Shown: positions 1 to 26,076 of the stretch, piece after piece
Layout of the letters: each line of letters begins with the position of its first letter
Position numbering within the stretch: position 1 is the stretch's first letter
Source: a virus
DNA length: 40,681 nt
Virus record (IMG/VR): IMGVR_UViG_3300031784_003532
Span: 1-40,681 of that record
Direction: 5' to 3' (one strand)
Program-made: the position numbers and the translations under genes
The notes under the pieces: generated by a model
The model's database searches: none
Told to the model about the DNA's origin: nothing
What the model saw: the letters and a program-made list of their open reading frames with translations, nothing else

Positions 1-1696
1 TAGGTACGCGCAAGTTGACAGACGGCGTCTCTAAGATGCGAGCGATGTCCTTACGAACTTCTTCAGTGTACTGCTCTTTAGGCATCGTGATGATAAGTTC
101 TTCGTGTACGCTGCCGATTACTTCATAGCCAGCTTTCATCAAAGCAACGAGGCGCTCTTTCATCAAGTCGGCCGCGGATGACTGGTTTGCGGAGTTAAAA
201 GCCTTGCGAGCATACTCCGGTGGCAGATGCCGGCGACGTCCATAGAGATTACGAACATAGCCGCGTTGACGACACAGCGTCTCAGCCTCTCGCGACGTGA
301 TGCGGAGATTAGGCAACTTAGCGTGATAGGTGTTGTAGATGTCGTTGCCGCGGGCTTCAGCTAAGCGCTTAAACTCGTGCGGGTCAGACGCATTGATGCT
401 CTCGACAACATCAGGGTCGACACTCAATGCGCTGATTAGACGAGCCTTGCCGCCGCCATAACCCATCAAGAAGTTAACAGTCTTTGCAGGTTTGCGCTTG
501 ATGCCGCACAAGTCTGCAACCCACTGATGGTAATCTTGGTCAGGATTCGCGTGGTAGGCTGCAATGGCGTCCGGGTCTCGGATGTAATGCACGATCGTGC
601 GGTACTCAATCTGAGAGTAGTCACATGATAGTAACACGTGTCCTGGACGCGGAACGATGAGAGCTTTGGCCTCTGGCATGAGTTGTTGCATGTTCGGCTT
701 CATGCAACTCATGCGTCCGGTGCGAACGCTCGGGTTGTATGAAGGGTGCAAAACGCCATCAATGTTCAAGTCAAGATACGTAGATAGGAACGTGCCGTTA
801 AATGTTGCAAGTCGACGATACTCGAGCATCAACTTGAGAACCTCAACAGGTGCCCCAGGATACGACATGTACGACTTGAGCGCATGCTTGTCAAAAGAAG
901 GGGCGCCAGATTCGGTGAAAGCGATGACAGGAAGACCGTGCGTATTGCAGAGTACGTCAAAGCAGTCTTCGTCTGAGTTAGCTTTAATGCTAAAGCCAAG
1001 TATGGACTCTAACTCGTCATCAATGTCCGCCATGCGGTGCAATGTCTTGAGTTGAGTTGCCATCGTGTTCATTACGTCGATGTTCATGCCTGACCGTTCC
1101 ATATGATACAGGCACATTGTAATGTTGTCTTCAAGGTCGCACACCAGCTTGCAATCTGGCGGTATGTTATCTTGTAGATAACGATGCAACTTACGAGTGA
1201 CGAACACGTCATCAGTTCCATACGGCGCCATGATGTCAGCTGGTATCCAACCGAAATCTTTGTTGCCTTTGAGATACGGTTTCATTTCCTTTTCGTGATG
1301 GCTGATGTCGTGATTAAGCCAGTCTTTTGATAGGAAGTCAAGACCATACCGCATTCGGTCTGAGTTCAAGATCTTCGCGTGCGACAGCGTGTCGAGTACT
1401 TTGCATTTGACCTCGACACCTAGGTTGTTGCTAAAGACATGCATGTCGTATTTGACGTTGTGATTAACCCACGTACCGCATGTGTTTACAACCTCCTCAA
1501 GCCACTTGTAAACTGGCTCCCAAGGAAGGTTGCCGCCGCGATGATGGCACACGGGGACATACCACGCGTCTGGGCAATCGTCCGCTGTCACGCAGATACC
1601 TGCAATGTAGCAGTTCTTCCAGACATTCAATGAATCCAGCGTGTAGTTGCCGCTTGTTGTTTCAAAGTCAAGGTACAGGTGCTTAGCTCCCGCCAA
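1..1696 (-). CDS. DNA polymerase, family A, with 3'-5' exonuclease (C-terminus outside window)
   Basis: Replicative phage DNA polymerase of the Pol I family; about 565 residues are visible and the C-terminus runs off the left edge. The N-terminus carries a 3'-5' proofreading domain: Exo I (LYLDFETT), Exo II (WVNHNVKYDMHVF) and Exo III (YGTDDVFVTRKL), with acidic residues intact. The polymerase domain shows motif A (CDYSQIEYR), motif B / O-helix (KRKPAKTVNFLMGYGGG, with Phe at the nucleotide-discrimination position) and motif C (VHDELI). It is the last gene of the leftward replication operon and overlaps the end of the dCMP deaminase gene. The start is uncertain: no ATG lies before the Exo I motif. 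TTG at 1696 is the only common start codon but lacks a clear ribosome site; a CTG at 1678 lies 8 nt after GGGAG. The family assignment is secure, the start is not. Confidence 0.96.
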   Translation of the reverse strand, partial: MAGAKHLYLDFETTSGNYTLDSLNVWKNCYIAGICVTADDCPDAWYVPVCHHRGGNLPWEPVYKWLEEVVNTCGTWVNHNVKYDMHVFSNNLGVEVKCKVLDTLSHAKILNSDRMRYGLDFLSKDWLNHDISHHEKEMKPYLKGNKDFGWIPADIMAPYGTDDVFVTRKLHRYLQDNIPPDCKLVCDLEDNITMCLYHMERSGMNIDVMNTMATQLKTLHRMADIDDELESILGFSIKANSDEDCFDVLCNTHGLPVIAFTESGAPSFDKHALKSYMSYPGAPVEVLKLMLEYRRLATFNGTFLSTYLDLNIDGVLHPSYNPSVRTGRMSCMKPNMQQLMPEAKALIVPRPGHVLLSCDYSQIEYRTIVHYIRDPDAIAAYHANPDQDYHQWVADLCGIKRKPAKTVNFLMGYGGGKARLISALSVDPDVVESINASDPHEFKRLAEARGNDIYNTYHAKLPNLRITSREAETLCRQRGYVRNLYGRRRHLPPEYARKAFNSANQSSAADLMKERLVALMKAGYEVIGSVHEELIITMPKEQYTEEVRKDIARILETPSVNLRVP

Positions 1697-2153
1697 ACAT
1701 GGCAGATCGTCGAGCGTCGTACATAGCCTTCCGCCGTTGGATAATCTCATAGTGTGATCCAATCATGTGAAATTTCATAGTGTTACCACCTCTGTACTCT
1801 TTTACGCAGAGGACATCAGTGATGTTAGGTGTGTTAAGTATTAGGCCAGCACAAGCTGCACATGGCGAGTATGTGCTGATCATGTAGCACGGAGTGTTCT
1901 TGTCACTCAGTTTAAGTAGAGCATTCGTTTCAGCGTGAACGCAGCCGCACTGCCCTGGTTCACCGCTGCAAGATGTATTGTCGATGCCGCGTGCTGGGCC
2001 GTTGTAGCCGAAAGCAAGGACTTCAGTCAGCCCATGATCGACTACAACAGCGCCAACTTGCAACCGCTTGCACGTAGATAAGCTAGCGACATCATTTGCA
2101 AACTTGATCATAACTTCAAGTTTCGCATGGTATCGGCCCATTCCGTTATGCAC
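1683..2153 (-). CDS. dCMP deaminase (zinc-dependent)
   Basis: Deoxycytidylate deaminase, converting dCMP to dUMP for dTMP synthesis. The zinc-binding and catalytic motifs are both present: CVHAETNALL (His and proton-shuttling Glu) and YSPCAACAGLI (two Cys ligands). The 156-residue length and the N-terminal KxxxxxxxSxCxRxxVGAVVV pattern fit the family. I use a GTG start at 2153 because AAAGGA lies 7 nt upstream; an ATG at 2141 is possible. It overlaps the kinase gene upstream by about 46 bp and the polymerase downstream, so it is translationally coupled within the leftward operon. In a phage that also carries a hydroxymethylase-like enzyme, deamination would divide dCMP between dTMP and modified-dCMP synthesis (inference). 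Confidence 0.93.
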   Translation of the reverse strand: MHNGMGRYHAKLEVMIKFANDVASLSTCKRLQVGAVVVDHGLTEVLAFGYNGPARGIDNTSCSGEPGQCGCVHAETNALLKLSDKNTPCYMISTYSPCAACAGLILNTPNITDVLCVKEYRGGNTMKFHMIGSHYEIIQRRKAMYDARRSAMFGGS

Positions 2154-2635
2154 TTGCGTTTCCTTTCATAAGCACTGCAGATTCTTTCAACAATGTCATC
2201 AGTGATGTCTGGCCTGTCAGTTGTAACGTGAATCTTGAAGTCAGCGTAGTACAGCATGAGCTTAAACGTCTCATTGACTAAGGACACTTCGTCGTACGTA
2301 AACAACTCACGCTTTTCATCGAATCGATCTCTGATGACTGGGCCATCAGCTGTGATAATGATAGTGAAGGCCAAGTACTTTAGGATCAAAGTCGAGTGTA
2401 GCACCTTGACGTCTTTGATTCTGCAAGACCGGTTCTTGAGCGTTGCAGAGTACGCGACCTCACTAAGGTGATAACGATCTCGGACGGCGTTGATCGAAGC
2501 CAAGTGAATGTAGTCTTCATCGCTCCAAGTATCCGGAAGAGGACCAAGGTGCTGATACACCATGTTGAGCCTCTTGGCTAACTTATGAGCTAGTGTTGTC
2601 TTTCCGACGCAGTCGGTGCCTTCTAAGATAAGCAT
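2108..2635 (-). CDS. P-loop deoxynucleoside monophosphate kinase (thymidylate-kinase-like)
   Basis: A 175-residue P-loop kinase. The N-terminus MLILEGTDCVGKTTLAHKLAK is a Walker A motif of the thymidylate kinase / deoxynucleoside kinase superfamily, and IRDRF (about residue 90) resembles the DRx substrate-binding motif of that group. The open frame extends further upstream, but ATG at 2635 follows CAGGAG by 9 nt and puts the P-loop at the N-terminus, as usual. It overlaps the thymidylate-synthase-fold gene by 53 bp and the deaminase gene by 46 bp. Its position between those two suggests it phosphorylates dTMP and possibly the 5-hydroxymethyl-dCMP made by its neighbour, as the T4 dNMP kinase does; the substrate is inferred only. 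Confidence 0.85.
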   Translation of the reverse strand: MLILEGTDCVGKTTLAHKLAKRLNMVYQHLGPLPDTWSDEDYIHLASINAVRDRYHLSEVAYSATLKNRSCRIKDVKVLHSTLILKYLAFTIIITADGPVIRDRFDEKRELFTYDEVSLVNETFKLMLYYADFKIHVTTDRPDITDDIVERICSAYERKRKCITEWADTMRNLKL

Positions 2636-3494
2636 CTTCCAGTACTCCTGATTGATAAATGGGTAAGTCAAGAACGCAGTTTGCGAGTGCTAGCAACATC
2701 GTGTTTCGTACAGGTGGTGATTTCGCGGGCATGCCGTTTAACCTATATGCGTACTCAAAGGCTAGACACGTGTTCATATCGTCCATGCTACAATCCGTGT
2801 CAGACAGACCCCACACGTCGAGATAACTCCTGCTTGATGTGCAGGCCTCTCTAGCCTGTTTGATGTACTTGTCGTACAGATGCAAGTCGGCAACCTGATG
2901 CTGGTACCAACCCGGCCGAATGCCTAACATGCCAGCTACGAACCGCTGAACGCACGTGTTAACAAAGATGTCGTACGGCATTCCTAGCCATACGTCGTTT
3001 GAACGCATTGTGGCGATCATACACAGTTCGTCGTTTATGATCATGAAGTTCCAAGACAGCGTGCAAGGTGTGTCGTTCACCCAATCAGCTTTCTCTACGT
3101 CTGAACTTCGATAGAGAGGTATCACTGCACGTCTCGTGTTAGGTGACTTGCGAAGAAGATCGACTAAGTCGCTGATCACCAGTCGTATACGAGGACCGTA
3201 CGCGCCGTGTACAACTCCATCGTTTGCGAAATTGACATACTGCGGCGCGTAATGAGATATCATTTCGAGCGAGCCGGCTGAGTTAAAGTACCAGAAGAAC
3301 TCGCCGGCAGCATAACGAGGGTCAAGCCCACGTCTTTCATTCGTCAGCCAAGTCATTGACGTCGACGCTAATCGTGCTGCGTAGCCGTGTAGTGCCACTG
3401 TTCCGCCGATGCGACTTTCCGATTGAGTGCCAAGAGTCAATAAGCTCCCCAGTGCGTGGGTCCACATTGAATCGATATCTTGGAAATGTTTCAT
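2583..3494 (-). CDS. Thymidylate-synthase-fold enzyme with dCMP hydroxymethylase signature
   Basis: A thymidylate synthase / dCMP hydroxymethylase family enzyme of about 303 residues. Visible landmarks are a conserved Glu in AGEFFWYFN, the catalytic Cys in NDTPCTLSWNF, the phosphate-binding Arg in MRSNDVWLGMPYD, and the His and Tyr of ADLHLYDKY. In thymidylate synthases the last position of the LGxPFN motif is Asn (E. coli N177), which reads the pyrimidine. Here it is Asp (LGMPYD), the change that marks dCMP hydroxymethylases such as T4 gp42. I therefore favour dCMP to 5-hydroxymethyl-dCMP. ATG at 3494 has GAGAG 9 nt upstream; TTG at 3500 is less likely. The gene overlaps the upstream methyltransferase by about 158 bp in another frame, unusually long. 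Thymidylate synthase activity cannot be excluded. Confidence 0.85.
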   Translation of the reverse strand: MKHFQDIDSMWTHALGSLLTLGTQSESRIGGTVALHGYAARLASTSMTWLTNERRGLDPRYAAGEFFWYFNSAGSLEMISHYAPQYVNFANDGVVHGAYGPRIRLVISDLVDLLRKSPNTRRAVIPLYRSSDVEKADWVNDTPCTLSWNFMIINDELCMIATMRSNDVWLGMPYDIFVNTCVQRFVAGMLGIRPGWYQHQVADLHLYDKYIKQAREACTSSRSYLDVWGLSDTDCSMDDMNTCLAFEYAYRLNGMPAKSPPVRNTMLLALANCVLDLPIYQSGVLEDAYLRRHRLRRKDNTSS

Positions 3495-4587
3495 CTTCAA
3501 AATCTCTCTGTCGTGTTTGTAGGTAAGCAGTTAAGTTGAACACCTTCTCAGTCTTACCCACTGATGAAGACGTTATCCAGCCATCACGATACTTTGCTTC
3601 CCAGTCTTCGCCGCCCCAAGCATCGTTGAGGTAGTGATATGCCTGTTGAGCAACCCATTCCCCAACGCACGGGCAGACTCCTTTAGCGATCTGCGGTACT
3701 GGATCATTGCCTAATGGAACTATCGGTAGTCCCATTATAGTCGCAAGCTCCTCATGTGTCAATCCTCGATGGTGATCGGGATGAATAAATCTGCCAGCTG
3801 ATGAGAAGATAGTCGGGCACGGCCTCTGCCAGGACAATCGCTTCACGCAGTGCATGCTGAACGGCATACCGCTGTTGCGCATAAGCCAAGTATCTTGCAT
3901 TCGTTCTGGCAGGTTGTCGCAATCATACTGTGCAAGCATGTTGAGATCCCAACCGTTAGGCAGTCGTGCCAAGCAATCTTGTTCGTCTTGAGACAGCTTC
4001 GTCAGTGTCATGTCAGTTCGATCTCGCATATGCCAAATAGCGTCGTACAGCGTTGGAGCATACTCAGGCAAAGTCATAGGCGAGATGTTAAACGGCTTTG
4101 ACCCATCGTAAGCAACGAAAAAGTATCGCTTACGATATTGAGCATTGCCGAGGCTAGCGGCATTCACGAATAGGTGAGCAACGCGATATCCTTGAGCTGC
4201 AACCTTCTCCACTAGCATGTCGATGAGCGGCTTGCCAGTCGAATAGGCTTGCTGAACTGACTCCCAAGCAAAGATCGGGTATCGTCCAGTGCAGTAGTTC
4301 ATGAACTCCCAGATGTCCCGAGTGCACGCGGCAAACGGTCCGTGAATGTTCTCGTCATACCCAGCTGTCACAGTACTAAAGCCTGTGCAACGAGGGTTGC
4401 CGAATGCAAAGTCGGCTGGGACGTCAGGCCATTCGTCCGCCGGCGAGTTGTGAACGTTGACGTTACACATGGCCTTTGCAGTCTCAATGCCGAACCCATG
4501 AACCTCAAGGTGATCAGTGACGTCAGCTACTTGCTGAACGCCGTGCGAAAACCCACCAGCGAATACGTGAATGCCTACAGCTTTCAT
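3337..4587 (-). CDS. DNA C5-cytosine methyltransferase family protein (divergent motifs)
   Basis: A 416-residue C5-cytosine methyltransferase family protein. Motif order is canonical: motif I HVFAGGFSHGVQQ (SAM binding), motif IV FGNPRCTGFS with the catalytic Cys, motif VI AWESVQQ, motif VIII QYRKRYFFVA, motif IX RPCPTIFSS and motif X HPDHHRGLTHEELATIMGLP. Two signature positions differ from the usual form: PRC instead of PPC in motif IV, and ESV instead of ENV in motif VI, so substrate or chemistry may have shifted. ATG at 4587 overlaps the MazG-like stop (ATGA). The C-terminal 50 or so residues, past motif X, are encoded across the start of the next gene. It may modify phage DNA against restriction, or act on a hydroxymethylated or glycosylated background (inference). 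Confidence 0.88.
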   Translation of the reverse strand: MKAVGIHVFAGGFSHGVQQVADVTDHLEVHGFGIETAKAMCNVNVHNSPADEWPDVPADFAFGNPRCTGFSTVTAGYDENIHGPFAACTRDIWEFMNYCTGRYPIFAWESVQQAYSTGKPLIDMLVEKVAAQGYRVAHLFVNAASLGNAQYRKRYFFVAYDGSKPFNISPMTLPEYAPTLYDAIWHMRDRTDMTLTKLSQDEQDCLARLPNGWDLNMLAQYDCDNLPERMQDTWLMRNSGMPFSMHCVKRLSWQRPCPTIFSSAGRFIHPDHHRGLTHEELATIMGLPIVPLGNDPVPQIAKGVCPCVGEWVAQQAYHYLNDAWGGEDWEAKYRDGWITSSSVGKTEKVFNLTAYLQTRQRDFEDETFPRYRFNVDPRTGELIDSWHSIGKSHRRNSGTTRLRSTISVDVNDLADE

Positions 4588-5006
4588 AACAACTTTTCCA
4601 AGTCAGGTGGAACGAACCCGGTCTTATCTGAACAGCGCTGATCAGACGGCCGCTTGGTCATGTTGCTTCGATGAACTTCTTCGAAAGCTTCAGGCAACGG
4701 CAACTCGAAAACAGCAGCGGTTCCCAACGTGACGTACGACAAGTCGGCCAGACCGTCTAGTACGTCTACCTTGTTGCAATGAGCAAGCCCACCGATGACC
4801 TCAGCCAACTCCTCCATCATCAAGTGAGCTCTAAGCCATCGAACGTCCTTTGACTTATTGTACGACTTGAGCGCGTCTTGCGCTTCACCATCCAGCAATA
4901 ACGAGAGCTGTGCCAATGCCGGTTCAGTATCGGTTGGCCAGTCATGTCGAGGCGTGATGTTCATATGCTCGTGAAACTGCTTCACTTGCGCTAATTGCTC
5001 TTTCAA
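4584..5006 (-). CDS. MazG-like nucleotide pyrophosphohydrolase
   Basis: An all-alpha NTP pyrophosphatase of the MazG / phosphoribosyl-ATP pyrophosphohydrolase type, 140 residues. The metal-binding helix pair is visible as MMEELAEVIGGLAH (ExxE) and DVLDGLADLSYVTLG (DxxxD), followed by the frequent HRSNMTK motif near the C-terminus. The start is TTG overlapping the primase stop (TTGA), with GGAG 7 nt upstream; ATGA joins it to the methyltransferase gene. Family members hydrolyse NTP or dNTP to the monophosphate and PPi. Beside a hydroxymethylase-like enzyme, the attractive role is removing unmodified dCTP and returning dCMP for modification, as T4 gp56 does by a different fold. This role is inference. 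Confidence 0.82.
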   Translation of the reverse strand: MKEQLAQVKQFHEHMNITPRHDWPTDTEPALAQLSLLLDGEAQDALKSYNKSKDVRWLRAHLMMEELAEVIGGLAHCNKVDVLDGLADLSYVTLGTAAVFELPLPEAFEEVHRSNMTKRPSDQRCSDKTGFVPPDLEKLL

Positions 5007-7789
5007 AATTCTGCTCCTTCTGGGATGTGATCAGGCCTTTCAGGGATGTCGTCAAGGCCTTTGAGAAACGAAATGAAAGCAGACGTCTTAATGTAGGCAC
5101 GCTGCCTACGTGTCAACGCATGCTTCCGAACAAGTACGCTTAATAGTCCCTGTGCAGCCTGTCTGTCCCAGGCGCACCAGTCTTGAATGTCCTGCAACTC
5201 GATGTACATTCGAGACAAGAGATTTTGAACGAAGTCTTTCGGGAATGGTGTCGTGATGATCGCTCGACGAACAGTGTCAGGATCGCTCAACTTGCTTTGT
5301 GATTCAATCGATTGAGTCAAGTCAAGATAACCGAAAGTGCGGCTTGAGTAAATCTCGTCTAAGAAGTCATGAACGTACTGTACGTGGCATGGTCTGACTA
5401 AGACTGACTCGCCTTGATTTGAGAATGTTCGTATCGCGAGCGATGCTGCAAGACGTGCTAGCTTGTACCTCATCGAGCCGCGGTCTACGATAGGGATAGA
5501 GTCAGTGAACTTGCTACTCATCTTGCTGCTTAGCTCGAGAACTAAGTCAGTGGACTCTTGCTCGAAGATAATGTCAGATGCTGTCCAGCCCCAAAGTATC
5601 AACCGCCGGCAGTCTTCAGCTGTGTAAACTGGATTGCCCATGGGTAACTTGTCGTTGATAAGCGACTGCGACACGTCCTTTGCAGATACGAGCAAGCACG
5701 CATCGAATCGACGCACGTCCTCTAGGCTGCCGATGAGTTCTTTGATCGCGTCAACACCGTAGCTGTAATGATCGATCGGGCTGTCAGACCTGGGGTTGGA
5801 TAGTGCTATGAGGCGTGTACGAGCATGCGTGCGACGTTTCTCAATCTTTGGGATTTCTGCAACACCGCTTGACCGCATATCAGTCAACTTACTAATGACT
5901 TCAGTTGAAGTCCCTTTGAGTTCTTCAAGTATGACGAGTCGCTTGTCGTGCGTAGGTATCACGCCCCAACTAACGAACCATCGCGACCCCATTTGTTGAA
6001 GGCCGCCTAGGAGACCAGCGACAGTCGCGTTCTTGCATTCGACCTTCTCGCCTAAGCCATAGTGCCTTTGGAGGTTTATGGTCGTTTCAGTCTTGCCTTG
6101 AGCTGAGTCGCCAAGGATGAGAACTTCAACCCAACCTTTGATCTTCTTTTGATCGAAGGTAAGGAACAGCGGCGAGTGGTATGCCAGGTCAACCATCAAA
6201 TGGATAGCCCTACGGCCATATATTCGGGTCACGTTGCGCTCTAGATCGTCATATAACGCATCCAACTTTTCCTTGAGACTACTATACGACCAATCCTTCG
6301 GCTGGAACTTATAGAGCGTGTCAAGGTCCTTTAAACGATAGGAACTCAGGGCATCCTGGCTAGTCCTGTACTTGCTGATGAGCAAAGTAGACTGCTGAGT
6401 TTGCGGGTGAGGATACATCCTGCCCATCATCTCGTATGTTTCATTAAGGTCGACGCCTTTGCCAATGCATATTGCCGGCTGCATCGACCTATCGATAGAC
6501 CTATTAGTGATCTCAAGCCGTGGGCTTATGCGTACATCTTCGACGTTATAGTATGCAGTCGGCTCGAACTCGCATATTTGACATCGCTTAGGAATCTCTA
6601 ACTCTTCTTTGAGAGCAGGCGCTTGATTTGCTTTAGGCCTAGCGACCATTTCTAGGATAGCCGGCGACTCAGCGTTTATGGCATACACGTGGGTCTCTTC
6701 ATTAAGGAAGACAGGGCATACAGCGCATTCTTCGATGTCTCGAGTGCACTTGACCTTGACACTAGACGGGATCACGTATGGCGATGTGTCAAGTGTAGAT
6801 ACTGTACACGTCATAACAACACGCTTGCCAGCATTGTCAGCGTTGATGGCGTGAACCAGGTCTACGCGCTTTGGCTTCTCCATGACTTCGTGAGCCTTCT
6901 TAGGGGCTGCAAAGTCAGTCGCTTCTGTATACACTCGATGAAGGTCGCCGCGCATCGCAATGAAGTCATTGATGTCGCCTTTAGGGAACTTAGCTGGGTC
7001 CAACGGCAACAGTGCTGTACGAACCTTCGTGACGCGGGAAAGGTGCTTGCAGGTGTTAACTTGCGATCGCTTGCCTTCTTCGTCAATGTCATAGCATACA
7101 GTCGTAGGCTTGTCTTTGAAGTAGTTCGTTAGACGAGGATCCCAGTTGCTCTCGCCCAATGTCGATGTGACAACACCGATGCCGTGCGGGTTAAGATACC
7201 TTGCAGCTACAATGGCTTTGACTTCGCCACCAACCACTAAGAGTTGGTCATACTTAAGCTGTTCGATCGGGAACAGCCTGACTTTACCACGACCTTTGAG
7301 ATTGCGAAACTTGTCCTTGCCAGGTGCACCGGGCAAGTACAGCCGAAGGTTTACGAAGTAGCCCGACTCGTTCTTGATCGGGATCGTAACGCGGCCATCT
7401 TTGGTGCCAAGACGATACTTGCGTATGTCATCATCAGTGACTCCTCTAGCGTACAGCTCTTGAAGTAACGGCTTAGCAGCCCATATGTCTGAGTGATAGT
7501 CTTCTATGACATCTGCTTTGATAACACGATCGGTGTTGATGTCATAACGAGTGGCAAGATCCTTCTTGATGTCAGCTCGAGTGCTCTTTAGAGCGCCGGC
7601 CAGAAAGGTGATTACATCGCCTTTCGCCCCGCATCCCGCGGTGCAGCATCTGAATCGTTGCTTCTCTACATTAATCGCACAGCTGGGAGTCGCGTCGCTA
7701 TGAAAAGGGCAGAGACAGCGAAGCTCGCTGTCCCCAGCCCAGTTGAAACCCCAGCCGATGCGTTCAAGCTCGGCTATTACATTAATCAT
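5003..7789 (-). CDS. Primase fused to MCM-like AAA+ helicase
   Basis: A 928-residue replication protein. Residues about 20-75 form a CHC2-type zinc finger (CLCPFHSD and the paired Cys of RFRCCTAGCGAKGD). Residues about 185-250 carry TOPRIM elements (VVGGEVKAI with the catalytic Glu, then CYDIDEEG with the acidic pair). A middle section has Cys pairs (CAVC, CQIC) that may bind another metal. The C-terminal half has Walker A GDSAQGKTE, Walker B RLVILEELKG and a sensor 1 region RLIALSNPRSD. The spacing and the segment between Walker A and B resemble MCM-type AAA+ domains more than the RecA-like DnaB helicase of T7 gp4. It overlaps the upstream gene by TAATG and the MazG-like gene by TTGA, so it is coupled. 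A primase-helicase is secure; the MCM-like label rests on motif resemblance. Confidence 0.92.
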   Translation of the reverse strand: MINVIAELERIGWGFNWAGDSELRCLCPFHSDATPSCAINVEKQRFRCCTAGCGAKGDVITFLAGALKSTRADIKKDLATRYDINTDRVIKADVIEDYHSDIWAAKPLLQELYARGVTDDDIRKYRLGTKDGRVTIPIKNESGYFVNLRLYLPGAPGKDKFRNLKGRGKVRLFPIEQLKYDQLLVVGGEVKAIVAARYLNPHGIGVVTSTLGESNWDPRLTNYFKDKPTTVCYDIDEEGKRSQVNTCKHLSRVTKVRTALLPLDPAKFPKGDINDFIAMRGDLHRVYTEATDFAAPKKAHEVMEKPKRVDLVHAINADNAGKRVVMTCTVSTLDTSPYVIPSSVKVKCTRDIEECAVCPVFLNEETHVYAINAESPAILEMVARPKANQAPALKEELEIPKRCQICEFEPTAYYNVEDVRISPRLEITNRSIDRSMQPAICIGKGVDLNETYEMMGRMYPHPQTQQSTLLISKYRTSQDALSSYRLKDLDTLYKFQPKDWSYSSLKEKLDALYDDLERNVTRIYGRRAIHLMVDLAYHSPLFLTFDQKKIKGWVEVLILGDSAQGKTETTINLQRHYGLGEKVECKNATVAGLLGGLQQMGSRWFVSWGVIPTHDKRLVILEELKGTSTEVISKLTDMRSSGVAEIPKIEKRRTHARTRLIALSNPRSDSPIDHYSYGVDAIKELIGSLEDVRRFDACLLVSAKDVSQSLINDKLPMGNPVYTAEDCRRLILWGWTASDIIFEQESTDLVLELSSKMSSKFTDSIPIVDRGSMRYKLARLAASLAIRTFSNQGESVLVRPCHVQYVHDFLDEIYSSRTFGYLDLTQSIESQSKLSDPDTVRRAIITTPFPKDFVQNLLSRMYIELQDIQDWCAWDRQAAQGLLSVLVRKHALTRRQRAYIKTSAFISFLKGLDDIPERPDHIPEGAEF

Positions 7790-20258: not shown

Positions 20259-20424
20259 GTCCCAACTTGACACGCAAGAGAAAGAGATCGAGCGACTTAA
20301 GCGTCGCATCACGCAGCTCGTTGACGAGAAAGCATTGCTTGCGCGTCAGCTCGAGATCGCACAGACTGGCTGGACTGACGAAGCAATCGACGGCTGCCGC
20401 AAAGCTGCTGGTGCCGGCCAATGA
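20236..20424 (+). CDS. Small coiled-coil protein (62 aa)
   Basis: A 62-residue protein with a clear heptad-rich helix (DTQEKEIERLKRRITQLVDEKALLARQLEIAQ) followed by a short Trp-containing tail. GGAG lies about 7 nt before ATG 20236. It overlaps the upstream gene by 23 bp and the next by an ATGA junction, indicating coupling. The function is unknown. Confidence 0.72.
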   Translation: MALPKWAESQLDTQEKEIERLKRRITQLVDEKALLARQLEIAQTGWTDEAIDGCRKAAGAGQ

Positions 20425-20834
20425 ACGTGTTCGTTCCTTTCACAGAGTTTGATCGCTGTGCAGCCTTCCTCGACGATGCTCGTCTCAACAAGCAGCTCGC
20501 TGAAGGCGCACAGATCATGCGGCAGATCGACATCTGGCCGCACGGGGCGTGGTCGCATCATCCTGCAATCATGTCCTGGGTTGGTCACCTTGACGCGCTC
20601 TTCGCGTACTTACACGCCGTTGAGCTCGAGCGCCACATCCGCGGGTTTCGTACACATCGCGAGTGGCTTAACATCCTCGACAAGTTCGTCGAGTTCGAAG
20701 TTGGAATGCCGTTCGACTACCCTACTTGGTGGGGTGAGCCGGCGGTTCACAAGTCTCATTATGACAACCTATTACTCAAGTTCGCGGGTCACCCGCATGG
20801 AGATTACGTATGGCCTGTAAGTATTTCGAAGTAA
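20421..20834 (+). CDS. Pyrimidine-dimer DNA glycosylase-like protein (MSMEG_6728-type)
   Basis: A 137-residue protein whose N-terminus (MNVFVPFTEFDRCAAFLDDARLNKQLAEGAQIM) and middle (GAWSHHPAIMSWVGHLDALFAYLHA) resemble the small family annotated as MSMEG_6728 / pyrimidine dimer DNA glycosylase. Typical members have a LDxKRLxKQxxE motif followed by HHPAVxMW. The activity is poorly established for this subgroup; if correct it would repair UV damage in phage DNA or take part in nucleic-acid processing. ATG overlaps the previous stop (ATGA). Its neighbour further right is a DNA ligase, which fits a repair set. Confidence 0.75.
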   Translation: MNVFVPFTEFDRCAAFLDDARLNKQLAEGAQIMRQIDIWPHGAWSHHPAIMSWVGHLDALFAYLHAVELERHIRGFRTHREWLNILDKFVEFEVGMPFDYPTWWGEPAVHKSHYDNLLLKFAGHPHGDYVWPVSISK

Positions 20835-21121
20835 GAGACTGCGGCACTAACATCCCTGTCGTCGCAGTGGAGCTAGAGTGCCACCCAATTGCAGCACGCG
20901 CTGGGTTTCGCCCAGGTGTTAACAAGCACGTGTTGGTGACAGCGCTGTCTTCGCTCAAGACTTATCACTGTAGCAGCTTTATCGAAGGCCGCACGATGCG
21001 CACTGCTTGCGATCACATCGGCGCAAACTTTGGAGATCTGCAATGCGGATCTGTCATTGACGTTGAGTTCATTCTTGGTGAAACGAAAGAACCGAAGGTG
21101 GCCGAATGCGTCCGACGATGA
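20810..21121 (+). CDS. Hypothetical protein (103 aa)
   Basis: A 103-residue protein with six Cys (MACKYFEVRDCG, VELECHP, YHCSSF, TACDHIG, LQCGSV) and strand-rich stretches (IPVVAVELE, SVIDVEFILGET). The Cys are not arranged in a standard zinc motif. GGAG lies 7 nt before ATG 20810. It overlaps its neighbours by 25 and 16 bp. The function is unknown. Confidence 0.72.
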   Translation: MACKYFEVRDCGTNIPVVAVELECHPIAARAGFRPGVNKHVLVTALSSLKTYHCSSFIEGRTMRTACDHIGANFGDLQCGSVIDVEFILGETKEPKVAECVRR

Positions 21122-21915
21122 AACTTTATAAGCTCGGTGAGCCGGCCAACTTTGCTCATGTAAAGCTTGACGGCCATTACCTTGAGGTCACTAAGGACGA
21201 CTTCGGTCGTGTGACCTGCGTAACCCGTCATGGCACGGCTCTCGACTTAACATGGGTGCCTACGCTTAAGAATGCTTGGCTGCGCATGCCGCCTTGCACT
21301 GCGTTAGGAGAGCTCTGGTATCCTGGGCAGCCTGCGTCATACGTCAAGACAGCGATCAAGAACCAAGACCCTCAGTTGCGGTTCTCGGTCTTCGCAGTCG
21401 ATGCTTGTAAGTCATTCTTAGAGTGTAGCATCTGGTGCATCAAGCACGGCTTCGAGATGACTCCTTATTACTCGAAGCTTGAAAAGAATTGGCCCGACGC
21501 GAATTGCTTAGGCGACTTTGACGTCTACAACTTGCCGGCCACTGAACATGAAGGCTTCGTCATGAAGGACGAACTGTGGAATGGTTGGCGTAAGCACAAG
21601 CCCTTCAAGACAATCGATCTTATCGTTGACGAGGTGACTGAAGGCCGTGGCCAGTTCATTGGCCTGGTCGGGTCGCTCGTGTGCAAGACAACTGAAGGCC
21701 ATGTGGTCGCGAACGTCTCTGGGTTCACCTATGACGAACGGGTAGAACTAAGTGAAGCCGATGTTGGCCGCGTCGTCGAGGTCAAGTATCAGTATGTCGG
21801 TTCACAGGGCCGCTTGCGTCACCCTACGTTCGTTCGCTTCAGGGACGACAAGCTGCCAGTCGAATGTACTCTTGATCAAGATGAGGATTTGCGATGCAAG
21901 TACAGCTCCAAGTAA
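21106..21915 (+). CDS. ATP-dependent DNA ligase (small phage type)
   Basis: A 269-residue nucleotidyltransferase of the ATP-dependent ligase superfamily. Motif I is FAHVKLDGHYLEV (adenylated Lys), motif III GELWYPG, motif IV HEGFVMKDE, motif V region LIVDEVTEG. The C-terminal OB-fold ends with RLRHPTFVRFRDDK, resembling motif VI of small phage ligases. It seals nicks during replication or repair. AAGG lies 7 nt before ATG 21106. It has no N-terminal DNA-binding domain, consistent with the compact T7-like or virus type. It lies in the early rightward operon beside the glycosylase-like protein. Confidence 0.88.
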   Translation: MRPTMKLYKLGEPANFAHVKLDGHYLEVTKDDFGRVTCVTRHGTALDLTWVPTLKNAWLRMPPCTALGELWYPGQPASYVKTAIKNQDPQLRFSVFAVDACKSFLECSIWCIKHGFEMTPYYSKLEKNWPDANCLGDFDVYNLPATEHEGFVMKDELWNGWRKHKPFKTIDLIVDEVTEGRGQFIGLVGSLVCKTTEGHVVANVSGFTYDERVELSEADVGRVVEVKYQYVGSQGRLRHPTFVRFRDDKLPVECTLDQDEDLRCKYSSK

Positions 21916-22115
21916 AGACCGCCGCAAGGTGGGAACCGTTCTGCAATCGCGAGTTCCCTAACATGGACGACGCTTGCGAATGGTTCAACAGCATACGATC
22001 GAAGTTCGAGACGAGGATGGTACCTCGTCACTCAAGCCGCTGGGTTAGTGGCATTACCATTGAAGAAAGGACCTGGGAAATTGTCAGGAAAAGCAAAAGA
22101 CCCCGAAAAGCTTAG
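21894..22115 (+). CDS. Hypothetical protein (73 aa)
   Basis: A 73-residue basic protein (MQVQLQVKTAARWEPFCNREF, DACEWFNSIRSKF, ending EIVRKSKRPRKA). The start ATG 21894 follows GAGG by 7 nt and overlaps the ligase gene by 22 bp. The strand followed by a helix with Trp and Phe recalls small alpha/beta proteins, and it may act with the ligase; this is context only. Confidence 0.7.
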   Translation: MQVQLQVKTAARWEPFCNREFPNMDDACEWFNSIRSKFETRMVPRHSSRWVSGITIEERTWEIVRKSKRPRKA

Positions 22116-22752
22116 GCACGACTTCTGGGCACGTAACCGCTGGTGCGCGCCGAAGTTCTTTGTGTGGGAGGATGGCTACACGCACTACTCCTACATAAGC
22201 GGCTATCACCCGTCACGCATCGGCCAGATGGTGTGGAAGGCCCTCGAGCACCTTTGGGGAAATCCAGAGACGAAGGTGAAGACCGAGTCGTATCTCAAGT
22301 ATATGAAGGACAAGATGCCGGCGGACGAGCTCGATCTTGTTGAGTCGAATCTTATCAGCCTTCATGCTGCGAACGAAGTCGTCGGCGACTGCACACTCGA
22401 GAACATTATCGTAAGCGATGGCCGCGTGTACTTCATCGACCCTGGACACTCGCGCGGCCTCAAGTGTCGAGAGCTCGATCTTGCTAAGATCTTGCAGTCG
22501 ATGCGAGGCTGGGAGAATGTCAAGCGACCCAAGGTCTTTGCACCAAGGGAACCTGATCACCTGGGTATGTACACCCGGGAGACCGTTGCACTTTATATCA
22601 CTCACTTATACAGGCTACTTAAGCATGAGCACCCAAAGCAATGCCACGAATGGGCACGATCCGAAATACAACTCGCGAAAGAAAACTTACTTCATCGACA
22701 TCGACGGGACCCTGTTGATGAAGCCGGCGGCTGGCGCCCAGCACTGGTCTGA
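22081..22752 (+). CDS. Protein-kinase-fold / sugar-kinase-like phosphotransferase
   Basis: About 223 residues with the C-lobe features of the kinase / aminoglycoside phosphotransferase fold. VGDCTLENIIV corresponds to the catalytic loop (HGDxxxxNI, with the His replaced by Val), VYFIDPG to the metal-binding D-x-G segment, and RELDLAKILQS to the following conserved Asp/Lys helix. Similar small kinase-like proteins occur in capsule and sugar-phosphate clusters, which fits the HAD and nucleotidyltransferase genes directly behind it. TTG 22081 with AAAGGA 9 nt upstream is the better start; GTG 22048 has no ribosome site. The substrate (sugar or amino alcohol) is unknown, and the missing catalytic-loop His might mean altered activity. 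Confidence 0.72.
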   Translation: MSGKAKDPEKLRHDFWARNRWCAPKFFVWEDGYTHYSYISGYHPSRIGQMVWKALEHLWGNPETKVKTESYLKYMKDKMPADELDLVESNLISLHAANEVVGDCTLENIIVSDGRVYFIDPGHSRGLKCRELDLAKILQSMRGWENVKRPKVFAPREPDHLGMYTRETVALYITHLYRLLKHEHPKQCHEWARSEIQLAKENLLHRHRRDPVDEAGGWRPALV

Positions 22753-22993
22753 CATGGTCAGCGCTGTGCCTGGGATGCTGAGCTGGGTAAACAGTCTTGA
22801 GCGGGACGGCCACGTGATCGTGTTGACGACCGCGCGTAAGGAAAGCCACCGCGCTGAGACTGAGCGTATGCTGAGGCTTAATGGCTTCTGCTGGGATCTT
22901 TTGATCATGGGCCTAACGAACGGAGAGCGCGTCGTCGTCAACGACGGCCCGTGCTCCGCTGTTGAACTTAAGACGAACGGAGGAATGCAATGA
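22625..22993 (+). CDS. HAD-superfamily phosphatase
   Basis: A 122-residue HAD-type hydrolase. Motif I is YFIDIDGTLL (nucleophile Asp and general acid Asp), motif II is HVIVLTTARKES (Thr), and VVVNDGPCSAVEL near the end takes the place of motif III/IV. The small size without a large cap is typical of the HAD proteins found in capsule and nucleotide-sugar clusters. The frame opens at 22418 within the kinase gene, but ATG 22625 precedes the HAD core by 19 residues and is preferred. It overlaps the kinase-like gene by 128 bp. It is joined to the nucleotidyltransferase by an ATGA overlap. The likely role is sugar-phosphate dephosphorylation in the same pathway. Confidence 0.83.
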   Translation: MSTQSNATNGHDPKYNSRKKTYFIDIDGTLLMKPAAGAQHWSDMVSAVPGMLSWVNSLERDGHVIVLTTARKESHRAETERMLRLNGFCWDLLIMGLTNGERVVVNDGPCSAVELKTNGGMQ

Positions 22994-23559
22994 TAGGAGT
23001 TGTTCTTGCTGCCGGCGATGCGACGCGTATGCCTAACAAGCTTATGCTTCATACGCCGCGGAATCACCCGCTTCTGTACGGCGCTCTCGAGTACGTGATG
23101 CGACAATGTTCTTACGTGGTAGTAGTGACCAAGAAGGACTCGATCGTCGAAACGTATTTGAAGCAGCTACGTTTTAAGCTAGATATACGCTTCCAAACGC
23201 ACGCGAATGGAGTTGTCGATGCTATATCGATTGCCAACTCGAAACGCGTTTTGGTGGCATTCGGAGACTGCTACGGGTACGATATGCTACCAAATGTCTA
23301 TACCAACCACGCGACCGTCGTAAAAGGCCGCGAGACTGGGATGGACGGTTGGGACGCGATAAACTCTAAGTGGGTTACACGAAGCGCCAGGTCTCGCTCG
23401 CATTCGTTCATCGGCGCGTTCTGCTGCCCGAGATGGAACCCGTCGTCTGGCAACCTCATCAAAGAGTTCAACGATCATAGCATCGTGCCTCAAGTTACTA
23501 TGACCGATATTCAAGACTGTGGAACACCGGAAGGATACCTTAAGATATGGCAACGATAG
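22990..23559 (+). CDS. Sugar-nucleotide transferase (NTP transferase)
   Basis: A 189-residue nucleotidyltransferase of the GT-A / NTP transferase fold. The N-terminus GVVLAAGDATRMPNKLML is the signature Gly-rich loop with RM and Lys, and VLVAFGDCYGYD supplies the metal-binding Asp. Such enzymes activate a sugar-1-phosphate or choline-phosphate with CTP, UTP or dTTP. Its place between HAD phosphatase and glycosyltransferase genes, with overlaps on both sides (ATGA upstream, 13 bp downstream), argues for a coupled pathway making an activated sugar. The identity of the sugar cannot be told from the sequence. Confidence 0.85.
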   Translation: MIGVVLAAGDATRMPNKLMLHTPRNHPLLYGALEYVMRQCSYVVVVTKKDSIVETYLKQLRFKLDIRFQTHANGVVDAISIANSKRVLVAFGDCYGYDMLPNVYTNHATVVKGRETGMDGWDAINSKWVTRSARSRSHSFIGAFCCPRWNPSSGNLIKEFNDHSIVPQVTMTDIQDCGTPEGYLKIWQR

Positions 23560-24599
23560 TGGTAAGTAAGTATGGGATGAAGTTCTATTCGCGTGACTGC
23601 ACGAAGAATGCGATCGGCGAGCAAGGCGAGACAGAAGGCGTACTCCGTCATCTTGTCAGTGCCGGCCACCGCGTGCTGTACTTTGGCAAGCATGAGGGCG
23701 AGATCCCAGGCGTCACGTTCCTTGAGCCGCATCTGACTGATCTCGACGACATGAGCACTGCCGCTCATCAAGAGTACTTGTGGTCGCTTGACACGCAGAT
23801 GGTCGGCGATCACAAGCCTGACCTAGCATTGCAGATCAACGGCATGGCACCTACGTTCTCATGGATTGACAATCCACGCGGCGCAAGGCTGCAAAGCTTT
23901 GCTGTCCGTATGTGCGCACCTTGGCTTAACATTCTGCAGTCGCTCAAACTAAAGCGCACGTGCATCAATAACGATCCGCGGTCTTATCCGCGTGATCAGG
24001 AGATGTCATATGGTTGGGACTATGTTCGCCCGAGCGCCTTGCTTGACCAATGCGCCACTGTTAAGCCCATGACAGTTGGAGGCAAGCAGTACTCTCGCGT
24101 AAGCATGTACGCCAAGGCTGAATCGTTCGGCTGGCTGCCTCCTCGCGAGAACAAGAAGCTGCGGGACGTAGTGATCGTAGCGCACAGTCACTTCGATGAT
24201 AGCTTAGGATCGAAGGCCACTTGGCCTGACCTCGAGAAGCTACTGGCGGAGACCGACTGCGTGGTGTACGGCAAAGGTTGGGAGGAGACCGAATGGCATG
24301 AGCGCTGGCCTGAGAAGTTCTTGGGTCCAGTGAAGCCGCTAGAGGTTCTCGACATCGTCAATACTGCAAAGGCTTCGTACGTCTGTGACCATACACCTGG
24401 CTTCAAGACTGGCAAGCCGTACGTCTTGACATCGCAGGGCTGCGTGCCGTGTTGGAGCTATAACGACGTTATGAACGCGATCAAGCATTATGATGAAAAC
24501 ATCGAGTGGGCTAAGATGTCGTTCCAGCCCGACTTCCGCGTACTTGATCGCGTGATTGAAGATCCTAACTTTGATGGGGGTGGCTATGAGCCGCGGTAA
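23547..24599 (+). CDS. GT-B-like glycosyltransferase
   Basis: A 350-residue protein with the outline of a GT-B glycosyltransferase: a first Rossmann-like half (IVVSKYGMKFYSRDC, GHRVLYFGKHEGE, LALQINGMAP), a linker, and a second half starting KLRDVVIVAHSHFDD with CVVYGKGWEE, FLGPVKPLEVLDIVNTAKASYVCD and KPYVLTSQGCVPC, the donor-binding pattern of this fold. It would use the activated sugar made by the preceding genes. The target may be the hydroxymethylated base in phage DNA or a virion protein. The GT-B assignment is from outline and motif spacing, not from a unique catalytic signature. Confidence 0.72.
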   Translation: MATIVVSKYGMKFYSRDCTKNAIGEQGETEGVLRHLVSAGHRVLYFGKHEGEIPGVTFLEPHLTDLDDMSTAAHQEYLWSLDTQMVGDHKPDLALQINGMAPTFSWIDNPRGARLQSFAVRMCAPWLNILQSLKLKRTCINNDPRSYPRDQEMSYGWDYVRPSALLDQCATVKPMTVGGKQYSRVSMYAKAESFGWLPPRENKKLRDVVIVAHSHFDDSLGSKATWPDLEKLLAETDCVVYGKGWEETEWHERWPEKFLGPVKPLEVLDIVNTAKASYVCDHTPGFKTGKPYVLTSQGCVPCWSYNDVMNAIKHYDENIEWAKMSFQPDFRVLDRVIEDPNFDGGGYEPR

Positions 24600-24882
24600 G
24601 GTTGTTAAGTTGAAGAAAGGCCAACTTGCGTTCATTGGCGGGATGGCTGTTCACGTTCGAGATGGTAAGGCCGAGATGTATGTGTACGGCGATGGTGAGA
24701 TCATTGTCCCTACGATTACACGGGAGCACGGACCGTTCGACACGATAGACTCTATTGATAAAGTTTGGAGAGAAGTGAATGGAAATCAAGTGGACGAAGA
24801 AGATATGCAAGGACCTAGAGGCCTGCGGCGCGATGATCTTTCCGATCGTGGCGAGCAGGATGCAACCTCCGGGCTGGCCTGA
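24586..24882 (+). CDS. Hypothetical small protein (98 aa)
   Basis: About 98 residues; strand-rich N-terminal half (GKVVKLKKGQLAFIGGMAVHVRDGKAEMYVYGDGEIIVPT) like a small beta barrel, with an acidic, Gly-rich C-terminus overlapping the next gene by 104 bp. ATG 24586 lies 5-6 nt after GGGGG and overlaps the glycosyltransferase stop; the open frame begins at 24556. The function is unknown. Confidence 0.65.
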   Translation: MSRGKVVKLKKGQLAFIGGMAVHVRDGKAEMYVYGDGEIIVPTITREHGPFDTIDSIDKVWREVNGNQVDEEDMQGPRGLRRDDLSDRGEQDATSGLA

Positions 24883-25111
24883 TAGGATCATAGTGCATAA
24901 GCATTGGACAGGCTTCATCGAGTTCAAGGGCGAAGGCACTGCGGTTCGCCCAGTGCAGGTCGTAGTGCTTCGCAACTTGAGAAAGCGAGGTAAGGTCGCC
25001 TATCTTGCACGTGAGCCTGGCATCCTGTACGACCCGCTCGATTATCGTGAGGTGGGAAACTTCAGTTGCGGTGCGGAACTCCTGGACCTCATACTGCAAG
25101 ACCTGAGATAA
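24779..25111 (+). CDS. VRR-NUC domain nuclease
   Basis: A 110-residue PD-(D/E)xK-like nuclease of the VRR-NUC type. The catalytic region reads PPGWPDRIIVHKHWTGFIEFKGEGTAVRPVQ, giving the Asp, the E-x-K pair and the conserved RPVQ; a following segment GKVAYLAREP matches the third core strand. Stand-alone VRR-NUC proteins are common in phages and are thought to process branched or damaged DNA. GGAGAG lies 6 nt before ATG 24779. It is the last gene before the inverted-repeat region; its stop codon lies inside the first 17-bp inverted repeat arm. Confidence 0.87.
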   Translation: MEIKWTKKICKDLEACGAMIFPIVASRMQPPGWPDRIIVHKHWTGFIEFKGEGTAVRPVQVVVLRNLRKRGKVAYLAREPGILYDPLDYREVGNFSCGAELLDLILQDLR

Positions 25112-25436: not shown

Positions 25437-25637
25437 ATGGAGCAACGAGAGAGAAGACAAAACAGAAGACTTGCAGCCCTACCCGCTGATAGGCGCTGCC
25501 CATGCTGTAACAAAACTGTTCTTAAGAGTAGAAGTTGGGTGATCAAAGATGGATGGGTCTCATGCAGAGGATGTTACTACGAAAGCTTTCAGATATGCCC
25601 TAGAGAACGAAAAGAGGATCAAGAGCATGCTCCTTAA
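25437..25637 (+). CDS. Small zinc-ribbon protein (66 aa)
   Basis: A 66-residue basic protein with four paired Cys in the pattern RRCPCCNKT and CRGCYYES (zinc ribbon), preceded by an Arg-rich N-terminus (MEQRERRQNRRLAALPADRR). ATG 25437 lies 6 nt after GGGAG; earlier ATGs touch the ribosome site or lie inside the inverted repeat. It precedes and overlaps the sigma-like gene by 89 bp. It may be a small DNA- or RNA-polymerase-binding protein; there is no known family. Confidence 0.75.
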   Translation: MEQRERRQNRRLAALPADRRCPCCNKTVLKSRSWVIKDGWVSCRGCYYESFQICPRERKEDQEHAP

Positions 25638-26076
25638 GAGCGCTAGAGGCGATCGTAACCTTGCAGAGGAAATGTTTAGCGACGTAGCGTTAGAGAGGCT
25701 GCCCAGGCTCTTCGAACTTTATGACGAGAGCCGACCCATCGATAACTACATGCTTCACAACATACGCTGGTATGCCTTCAAGTATATGAACAGGCGTAAG
25801 CACTACTCAGAGCTTGAGCATACCGGCATTAGAGACAAGCACAGTCATCTCGACGCGCTTGACTCGCTGAATGAACTTGACCGTTACTTGATCGAAGCTA
25901 ACGTGCTGTATGGCATGACCTACACAGAGATAGCTGCTGATCTTAACTGGCCTTCGTACCTTGTGAGTAGAGCTGTGAAGACGGCTAAAGACCGTCTTGC
26001 AGAGTGCTACGATGAGAACCGTGATTGGGTGTTTGTTAAACGTGTTATAAGGATACTATGCAATGCAGTGGAATGA
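25549..26076 (+). CDS. Sigma-70-like transcription factor
   Basis: A 175-residue protein with two sigma-like regions. Region 2-like: LAEEMFSDVALERLPRLFELYDES and NYMLHNIRWYAFKYMNRRK (core binding and -10 recognition helices). Region 4-like helix-turn-helix: LNELDRYLIEANVLYGMTYTEIAADLN followed by WPSYLVSRAVKTAKDRLAE. It resembles small phage sigma factors that direct middle or late transcription. Its position immediately before the small terminase and head genes, and behind the inverted-repeat region, suggests it switches on virion genes. The start at ATG 25549 has only a weak ribosome site and overlaps the zinc-ribbon gene. Target promoters were not identified. Confidence 0.82.
   Translation: MDGSHAEDVTTKAFRYALENEKRIKSMLLKSARGDRNLAEEMFSDVALERLPRLFELYDESRPIDNYMLHNIRWYAFKYMNRRKHYSELEHTGIRDKHSHLDALDSLNELDRYLIEANVLYGMTYTEIAADLNWPSYLVSRAVKTAKDRLAECYDENRDWVFVKRVIRILCNAVE

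Follow-up and report, generated by a model that had tools for sequence, protein, structure and literature searches.

A predicted dCMP hydroxymethylase and a candidate DNA-glycosylating cassette in an uncultured siphovirus

Described systems for modified cytosine and the present locus

The hydroxymethylase (HMase) of phage T4, gp42, belongs to the thymidylate synthase (TS) superfamily, and its ternary structure has led to a proposed signature for hydroxymethylation, an Asp three residues before the catalytic Cys together with a Ser or Thr two residues before a Tyr (PMC6400193). The D179N change abolishes the activity of T4 gp42, and the S94A mutant retains about 25%. The DNA of RB69 carries arabinosyl-hydroxymethylcytosine (arabinosyl-hmC) and this phage has a fused nucleotidyltransferase/kinase protein near its HMase; Thanatos, with deoxypentose-C, encodes a protein related to the fused one and a UDP-xylose pyrophosphorylase. 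In Enterococcus phage 9183 the order is kinase, HMase, dUTPase, HAD and a fused nucleotidyltransferase/kinase-like protein. The domains PF00303, PF01503, PF00383 and PF14437 and those of DNA ligase co-occur in contigs enzymatically selected for modified cytosine in the MetaGPA study, where PF14743 is among the domains associated with modified contigs (PMC8670742).

The DNA considered here, called the window in its whole length, is a 40,681-base IMG/VR virus record from an uncultured bacterial virus. Terminase, portal and major capsid genes lie in its right part and replication and nucleotide genes in its left part, and unlike T4 the phage is a siphovirus with a family A polymerase. At the nucleotide level, the left half of the window matched none of the phage records. 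A preliminary description had proposed a TS-fold gene for a dCMP hydroxymethylase, accompanied by genes for a MazG-like protein, a dNMP kinase, a C5-methyltransferase and a dCMP deaminase. The gene lies where it had been placed, on the minus strand, and all four partners are found with it in one minus-strand run (Table 1). With the predicted HMase, an enzyme kind already known gains a new member, in a new siphovirus group.

In our reading, to which we give a probability of about two in three, the HMase leads to hmC in the DNA, a separate cassette makes an activated sugar and a GT-B glycosyltransferase (GT) transfers it. Cys144 of the HMase would attack C6 of dCMP while Asp175 would bind and protonate the cytosine N3; methylene-THF would be the source of the carbon, and a water molecule that Asp141 activates would give 5-hydroxymethyl-dCMP. 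The adjacent kinase and host NDP kinase could then convert this product into the triphosphate for incorporation of hydroxymethylcytosine by the phage polymerase, with dCTP lowered by the MazG-like protein. The kinase, HAD phosphatase and nucleotidyltransferase of the cassette may together supply a nucleotide sugar, from which the GT-B enzyme would place the sugar onto 5hmC in DNA. The sequences themselves show which genes are present, the residues of the active site, an operon order that is conserved, the joint occurrence of cassette and HMase and, by prediction, the GT-B fold; the substrates and the product, which sugar is used and the role of DNA as acceptor of the GT are what we infer in this scheme. 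Judged from its sequence, the protein is very probably a dCMP 5-hydroxymethylase; there is good reason to expect hmC in the phage DNA, and for hmC that is also glycosylated the balance is modestly favourable. Such changes would probably hide the phage DNA chemically from the defences of the host.

The whole package outweighs the HMase alone, with its new GT family and its divergent, HMase-linked family of C5-methyltransferase-like (C5-MTase-like) proteins. Both families are compact, expressible and testable, and their study may bring to light new base decorations of DNA that protect against restriction and CRISPR, as well as new reagents for tagging 5hmC.

Table 1. Positions in the window of the genes and motifs discussed, with the assignment and supporting match for each
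Feature	Position	Strand	Evidence or remark
Family A DNA polymerase, cut off by contig end	2-1762	-	PHROG DNA polymerase 1e-101
dCMP deaminase	1683-2153	-	PF00383 3e-15; PHROG dCMP deaminase 3e-26
P-loop dNMP kinase, probable hydroxymethyl-dCMP kinase	2108-2671	-	weak TMK/dNK Pfam; PHROG thymidylate kinase 3e-8
Predicted dCMP hydroxymethylase (HMase), TS superfamily, 303 aa	2583-3494	-	PF00303 E 9e-20
LGMPYD motif, residues 170-175	2970-2987	-	Asp175 codon GAC 2970-2972
DTPCT	3060-3074	-	Asp141 3072-3074; nucleophile Cys144 3063-3065; Thr145
C5-cytosine-methyltransferase-like protein	3337-4587	-	PF00145 4e-10; overlaps HMase by 158 nt
MazG/PRA-PH-like nucleotide pyrophosphohydrolase, candidate dCTPase	4584-5006	-	PF01503 9e-12
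Primase-helicase	5003-7789	-	DnaG zinc ribbon and weak MCM P-loop match
ATP-dependent DNA ligase	21106-21915	+	PF14743 2e-14
APH/choline-kinase-like small-molecule kinase	22048-22752	+	conserved GDCTxEN...IDPG; start uncertain
HAD-family phosphatase	22625-22993	+	Acid_phosphat_B 6e-7
MobA/GlmU-like nucleotidyltransferase (LAAGxATRMPNK)	22990-23559	+	PF12804 2e-6
Predicted GT-B-fold glycosyltransferase, candidate 5hmC-DNA glycosyltransferase	23547-24599	+	AF2 pLDDT 70, pTM 0.74

The predicted sugar cassette and its possible acceptor

The DNA ligase gene is followed on its right by a cassette of four genes, encoding the kinase, the HAD phosphatase, the sugar nucleotidyltransferase and the GT, and with these predicted functions the "derivative" of hmC that the preliminary description had allowed for can be made specific. 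The kinase matches a Bud32-type kinase model of NCBIfam (5e-6), and its counterpart in the relative L118 matches Choline_kinase (1.5e-4). Since its AF2 model is too weak (pLDDT 59; top Foldseek matches to APH enzymes, E 0.014), this assignment rests on motifs and profiles. The nucleotidyltransferase matches NCBIfam sugar-1-phosphate nucleotidylyltransferases (to 8e-6). The order of the cassette is kept in diverged GT relatives, even where identity falls to about 35%, and such relatives add genes for a mannose-6-phosphate-isomerase-like cupin, a cytidylyltransferase and radical-SAM and O-methyltransferase-like proteins, which, as expected, fit sugar tailoring. Four GT relatives (L117, L121, L122 and L123) share a conserved protein of 280-315 aa, whose L117 copy matches no Pfam family, and also have cupin/isomerase, radical-SAM/SPASM and methyltransferase genes, probably for further sugar tailoring. 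A sigma-factor-like protein (25549-26076) is conserved directly downstream of the cassette in relatives.

The sequence of the GT has no match in Pfam, PHROGs, NCBIfam or 50,697 phage records, and that of its relative L122 likewise has none; tblastn against phages with the GT and the nucleotidyltransferase gave no match, and homology to the T4 beta-GT family was found neither by Pfam nor by the GT profile nor by phmmer. The only PDB entries matched by sequence, of armadillo-repeat proteins, were rejected as spurious. Foldseek relates the predicted structure to BshA (3.5e-8) and the GT of phage HY126 (PDB 9ir0, 5e-6), and its best viral match (2e-10) is a protein annotated as a DNA beta-glucosyltransferase. 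The GT family is absent from phage isolate records, Pfam and PHROGs, and is accompanied by its own predicted sugar-activation genes. By comparison, the tailoring enzyme characterised in the MetaGPA study is a carbamoyltransferase (PMC8670742), whereas the candidate in the window is a GT-B enzyme that comes with genes predicted to activate its sugar.

The window resembles RB69, Thanatos and phage 9183 in combining an HMase with a phage nucleotidyltransferase and an APH-type kinase, to which 9183 adds a HAD alongside, and a GT-B transferase occurs both in the window and, as a candidate, in RB69. However, kinase and nucleotidyltransferase are separate genes in the window and fused in the RB69, Thanatos and 9183 modules, and the GTs are unrelated in sequence. 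When profiles of the window families were compared with RB69 and 9183 proteins (Z=1e4, 2,000 shuffled decoys, best decoys 0.6-4), the kinase profile matched RB69 ORF052c (E 3e-4, best decoy 4), the HAD profile the HAD beside the 9183 HMase (8e-7), and the nucleotidyltransferase profile the 9183 protein (0.009, best decoy 0.6) and, weakly, RB69 ORF053c (E 0.16). No match in the window was found to the GutQ-like sugar-phosphate isomerase RB69 ORF055c; some relatives have a cupin/mannose-6-P-isomerase-like gene. These profile matches suggest that the cassette resembles an unfused cousin of the RB69/9183 module with an unrelated transferase. It would work in the manner of these systems, but we do not class it as a member of the RB69 type, because its GT shows no sequence homology to the DNA GTs with which it was compared and no isomerase accompanies it.

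The first alternative to be weighed is that the phage DNA contains hmC without glycosylation, and that the cassette modifies the cell surface or some other acceptor. Lacking a sequence match to known DNA glycosyltransferases, the GT could indeed have another acceptor; its model best matches, among PDB folds, GTs for small molecules and the envelope (BshA, WaaG), some 18 kb separate the cassette from the HMase operon, and the GT is carried by five of 25 HMase phages and missing from the other 20. Against this, a scan with the GT only gave 14 contigs, and a D-type HMase is present in all seven that are longer than 30 kb, and in the 25.6-kb G008 as well, while the six without HMase are fragments of 10-26 kb, among them G007 with a canonical ThyA. 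Beside the cassette there are also the DNA ligase gene and one for an endonuclease-like protein (24779-25111, PHROG 93), the closest viral fold is annotated as acting on DNA, and in RB69 and 9183 enzymes of these types are likewise encoded next to the HMase. With these observations we regard a cassette directed away from DNA as rather unlikely.

Active site and conservation of the predicted hydroxymethylase

The HMase reading frame extends from an ATG at 3494 to a stop at 2583, an alternative TTG at 3500 adding two residues. Its PHROG profile matches are thymidylate synthases (down to 2e-32), and its best PDB sequence relatives are entries of the CMP 5-hydroxymethylase MilA (5b6d, 1.8e-21). 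The catalytic Cys and the substrate ligands are all present (C144, R121, R164, S165, H205, Y207), along with R122 next to R121, Y99 and E65. The protein shares with T4 gp42 not only the superfamily but also D175, D141, C144, S165, R121, H205, Y207 and Thr145, and thereby the set of Cys, Asp177, Asp(-3) and Thr147, and similar partners surround the two (kinase, candidate dCTPase and dCMP deaminase). They are nevertheless very distant (phmmer E 2e-4), the window protein being longer and having Gly for Ser94. TS-family genes of the MetaGPA study likewise combine Asp177 and a changed residue 147 with PF01503, PF00383/PF14437 and DNA ligase, as in the window, and the domain set of the window operon agrees with that of the modified contigs (PMC8670742).

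Alignments with T4 gp42, SPO1 gp29 and canonical ThyA place Asp175 opposite T4 Asp179 and EcTS Asn177, as the preliminary description had read the LGMPYD motif. It had taken this Asp to be diagnostic for dCMP hydroxymethylase, which holds for the preference of cytosine over uracil and fails for hydroxymethylation, since a TS with the N177D change makes 5-methyl-dCMP (PMC8670742). Asp175 alone is a mark of cytosine over uracil and no proof of hydroxymethylation. The same follows from a TS-like protein of Xanthomonas phage DoCa10 (L164, 2947-3831), which has Asp at 177 and Asn at -3, with Pro after the Cys; it could be a candidate dCMP methylase of the Xp12 type, and its gene adjoins a HAD hydrolase. 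The reading as a dCMP hydroxymethylase itself gains support from a residue that the preliminary description did not mention, Asp141, which sits three residues before Cys144 at the position of the water-activating Asp145 of T4 and points to hydroxymethylation. What counts against it is the T4 Ser94 position two residues before the Tyr, part of the proposed signature, which is Gly97 here and Gly in the whole clade rather than Ser or Thr. SPO1 gp29, an annotated dUMP hydroxymethylase, has Asp at -3, Ala at the T4 94 position and Asn at 177, a pattern consistent with a division in which the -3 Asp would specify hydroxymethylation and residue 177 the base, with position 94 being flexible.

It is in this light that a dCMP methyltransferase of the Xp12 type, transferring a methyl group and giving DNA with 5-methylcytosine, has to be considered. 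The product of the N177D synthase and the Gly in place of T4 Ser94 would both agree with it, but the -3 Asp141 is common to T4 gp42, MilA and SPO1 gp29, Thr145 is as in T4, and the DoCa10 enzyme, with Asp177 and without the -3 Asp, looks different around its Cys. We consider such a methyltransferase very unlikely.

As Asn to Asp takes a single base change, conservation was needed as a test. An alignment-based scan of IMG/VR for the HMase gave 421 relatives, and Asp is at the 175 position in all of the best 80, which were compared; the scan patterns, MRSND[VA]W and GWY[QV]HQV, do not include this residue. In a second scan, with the C5-MTase-like protein as the only bait, an HMase of the D type was found in 29 of 30 loci, the remaining locus being a 4.7-kb contig, and Asp was present in 29 of 29; the two sets overlap in some contigs. 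The Asp is also kept in four close IMG/VR relatives (57-60% identity, among the best 80) and in MW202657 (42%), and the -3 Asp is invariant across the clade in both sets. With 80 of 80 and 29 of 29 relatives retaining it, Asp175 is neither chance nor error.

An ordinary thymidylate synthase, converting dUMP to dTMP and carrying a neutral Asp, would have the same fold, would find its dUMP supplied by the dCMP deaminase of the operon, and would account for a window in which neither ThyX nor a second TS was found. This is highly improbable, however, given the invariance of both Asp residues and the loss of both marks of ThyA, with Thr145 replacing EcTS His147 and Asp175 replacing Asn177; the canonical ThyA of the related contig G007, by comparison, has Leu at -3, His147 and Asn177. 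The best NCBIfam TS model reaches 64 bits, where all cut-offs are at least 108 bits, and some related D-type HMase phages (G014, G024, G010 and L120, at 5858-6736 in the last) encode a separate ThyX, so that dTMP synthesis is separate from the HMase there. A CMP (ribonucleotide) hydroxymethylase is scarcely credible in spite of MilA being the best PDB sequence match, as the ribose determinants of MilA, Ala176 and Lys133, are replaced by Ser165 and Arg121, which occur in dCMP/dUMP enzymes and would predict dCMP rather than CMP as substrate, and the genomic setting is one of DNA replication.

The operon and its methyltransferase-like neighbour

The gene order primase, MazG-like, C5-MTase-like, HMase, kinase, dCMP deaminase and polymerase recurs in many diverged contigs, some diverged loci being without one or two of these genes. 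The dNMP kinase matches the kinase beside the HMase of phage 9183 (1.8e-6), and in 61 of 76 loci a homologue is found no more than 400 nt away from the HMase. By analogy with T4 gp1 and gp56, the kinase would phosphorylate hydroxymethyl-dCMP and the MazG-like protein, which the window has in place of gp56, would lower dCTP; the dCMP deaminase, the counterpart of T4 cd, would feed dTMP synthesis. The C5-MTase-like neighbour is a further difference from T4. The closest deposited HMase (42%), annotated as a pyrimidine HMase, is that of the Siphoviridae isolate ctIqW946 (MW202657, Manatee Spring), where the order MazG, HMase, X, kinase, dCMP deaminase and polymerase is as in the window; this isolate, however, has no GT of the window family, and its C5-MTase-like gene is elsewhere in the genome and of the PPC type. 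Large overlaps join the C5-MTase-like gene to the HMase gene (3337-3494) and the latter to the kinase gene (up to 89 nt, 2583-2671, the kinase start being unsure), and are also seen in close relatives. The primase-helicase (928 aa; phrog_18685, of unknown function) combines the DnaG-type zinc ribbon and the weak MCM P-loop match in one protein.

Canonical C5-MTases have the motifs PPC, ENV and FxGxG. The window protein shares with C5 DNA methyltransferases of the M.HaeIII type the fold, most motifs and, by alignment, the catalytic Cys and QxRxR, but it has GNPRC for PPC, ESV for ENV and an SAM motif I (FAGGFS) that is two residues short, so that it departs from the canonical set, and its family is found almost exclusively beside phage HMases. 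No member of this family turned up in a scan of 84,980 cellular genomes. The gene is odd where all cytosines would be 5-substituted, which counts against our reading of the locus. As a fully hydroxymethylated genome has no C5-H cytosine, the protein would imply partial replacement, action before replacement or another chemistry. In vitro, C5-MTases are able to attach thiols to 5hmC (PMC7176277). It is conceivable, if quite unlikely, that the GNPRC/ESV protein is no cytosine methylase and acts on 5hmC in DNA; in that event a covalent C6 adduct might expel the hydroxyl, and another nucleophile or a sugar-bearing group might become attached.

Compared with the relatives L003-L005, the HMase has changed faster than any other protein of the operon (57-60% identity, dN about 0.35), while the primase, the C5-MTase-like protein and the polymerase are at 80-95% identity (dN 0.05-0.13); L005 entered the dN/dS comparison in part, and the L004 kinase row is misframed. 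Recombination of the HMase gene was considered and rejected. With synonymous divergence near saturation across the operon and the dN/dS of the HMase still at 0.2, fast evolution of the protein is the simpler reading. In the HMase tree the branches of T4 gp42, PEi20 and ThyA are so long that the tree does not separate a single origin of Asp177 from several. A pyrimidine-dimer DNA glycosylase (Pyr_excise, 5e-13) is encoded at 20421-20834 of the window.
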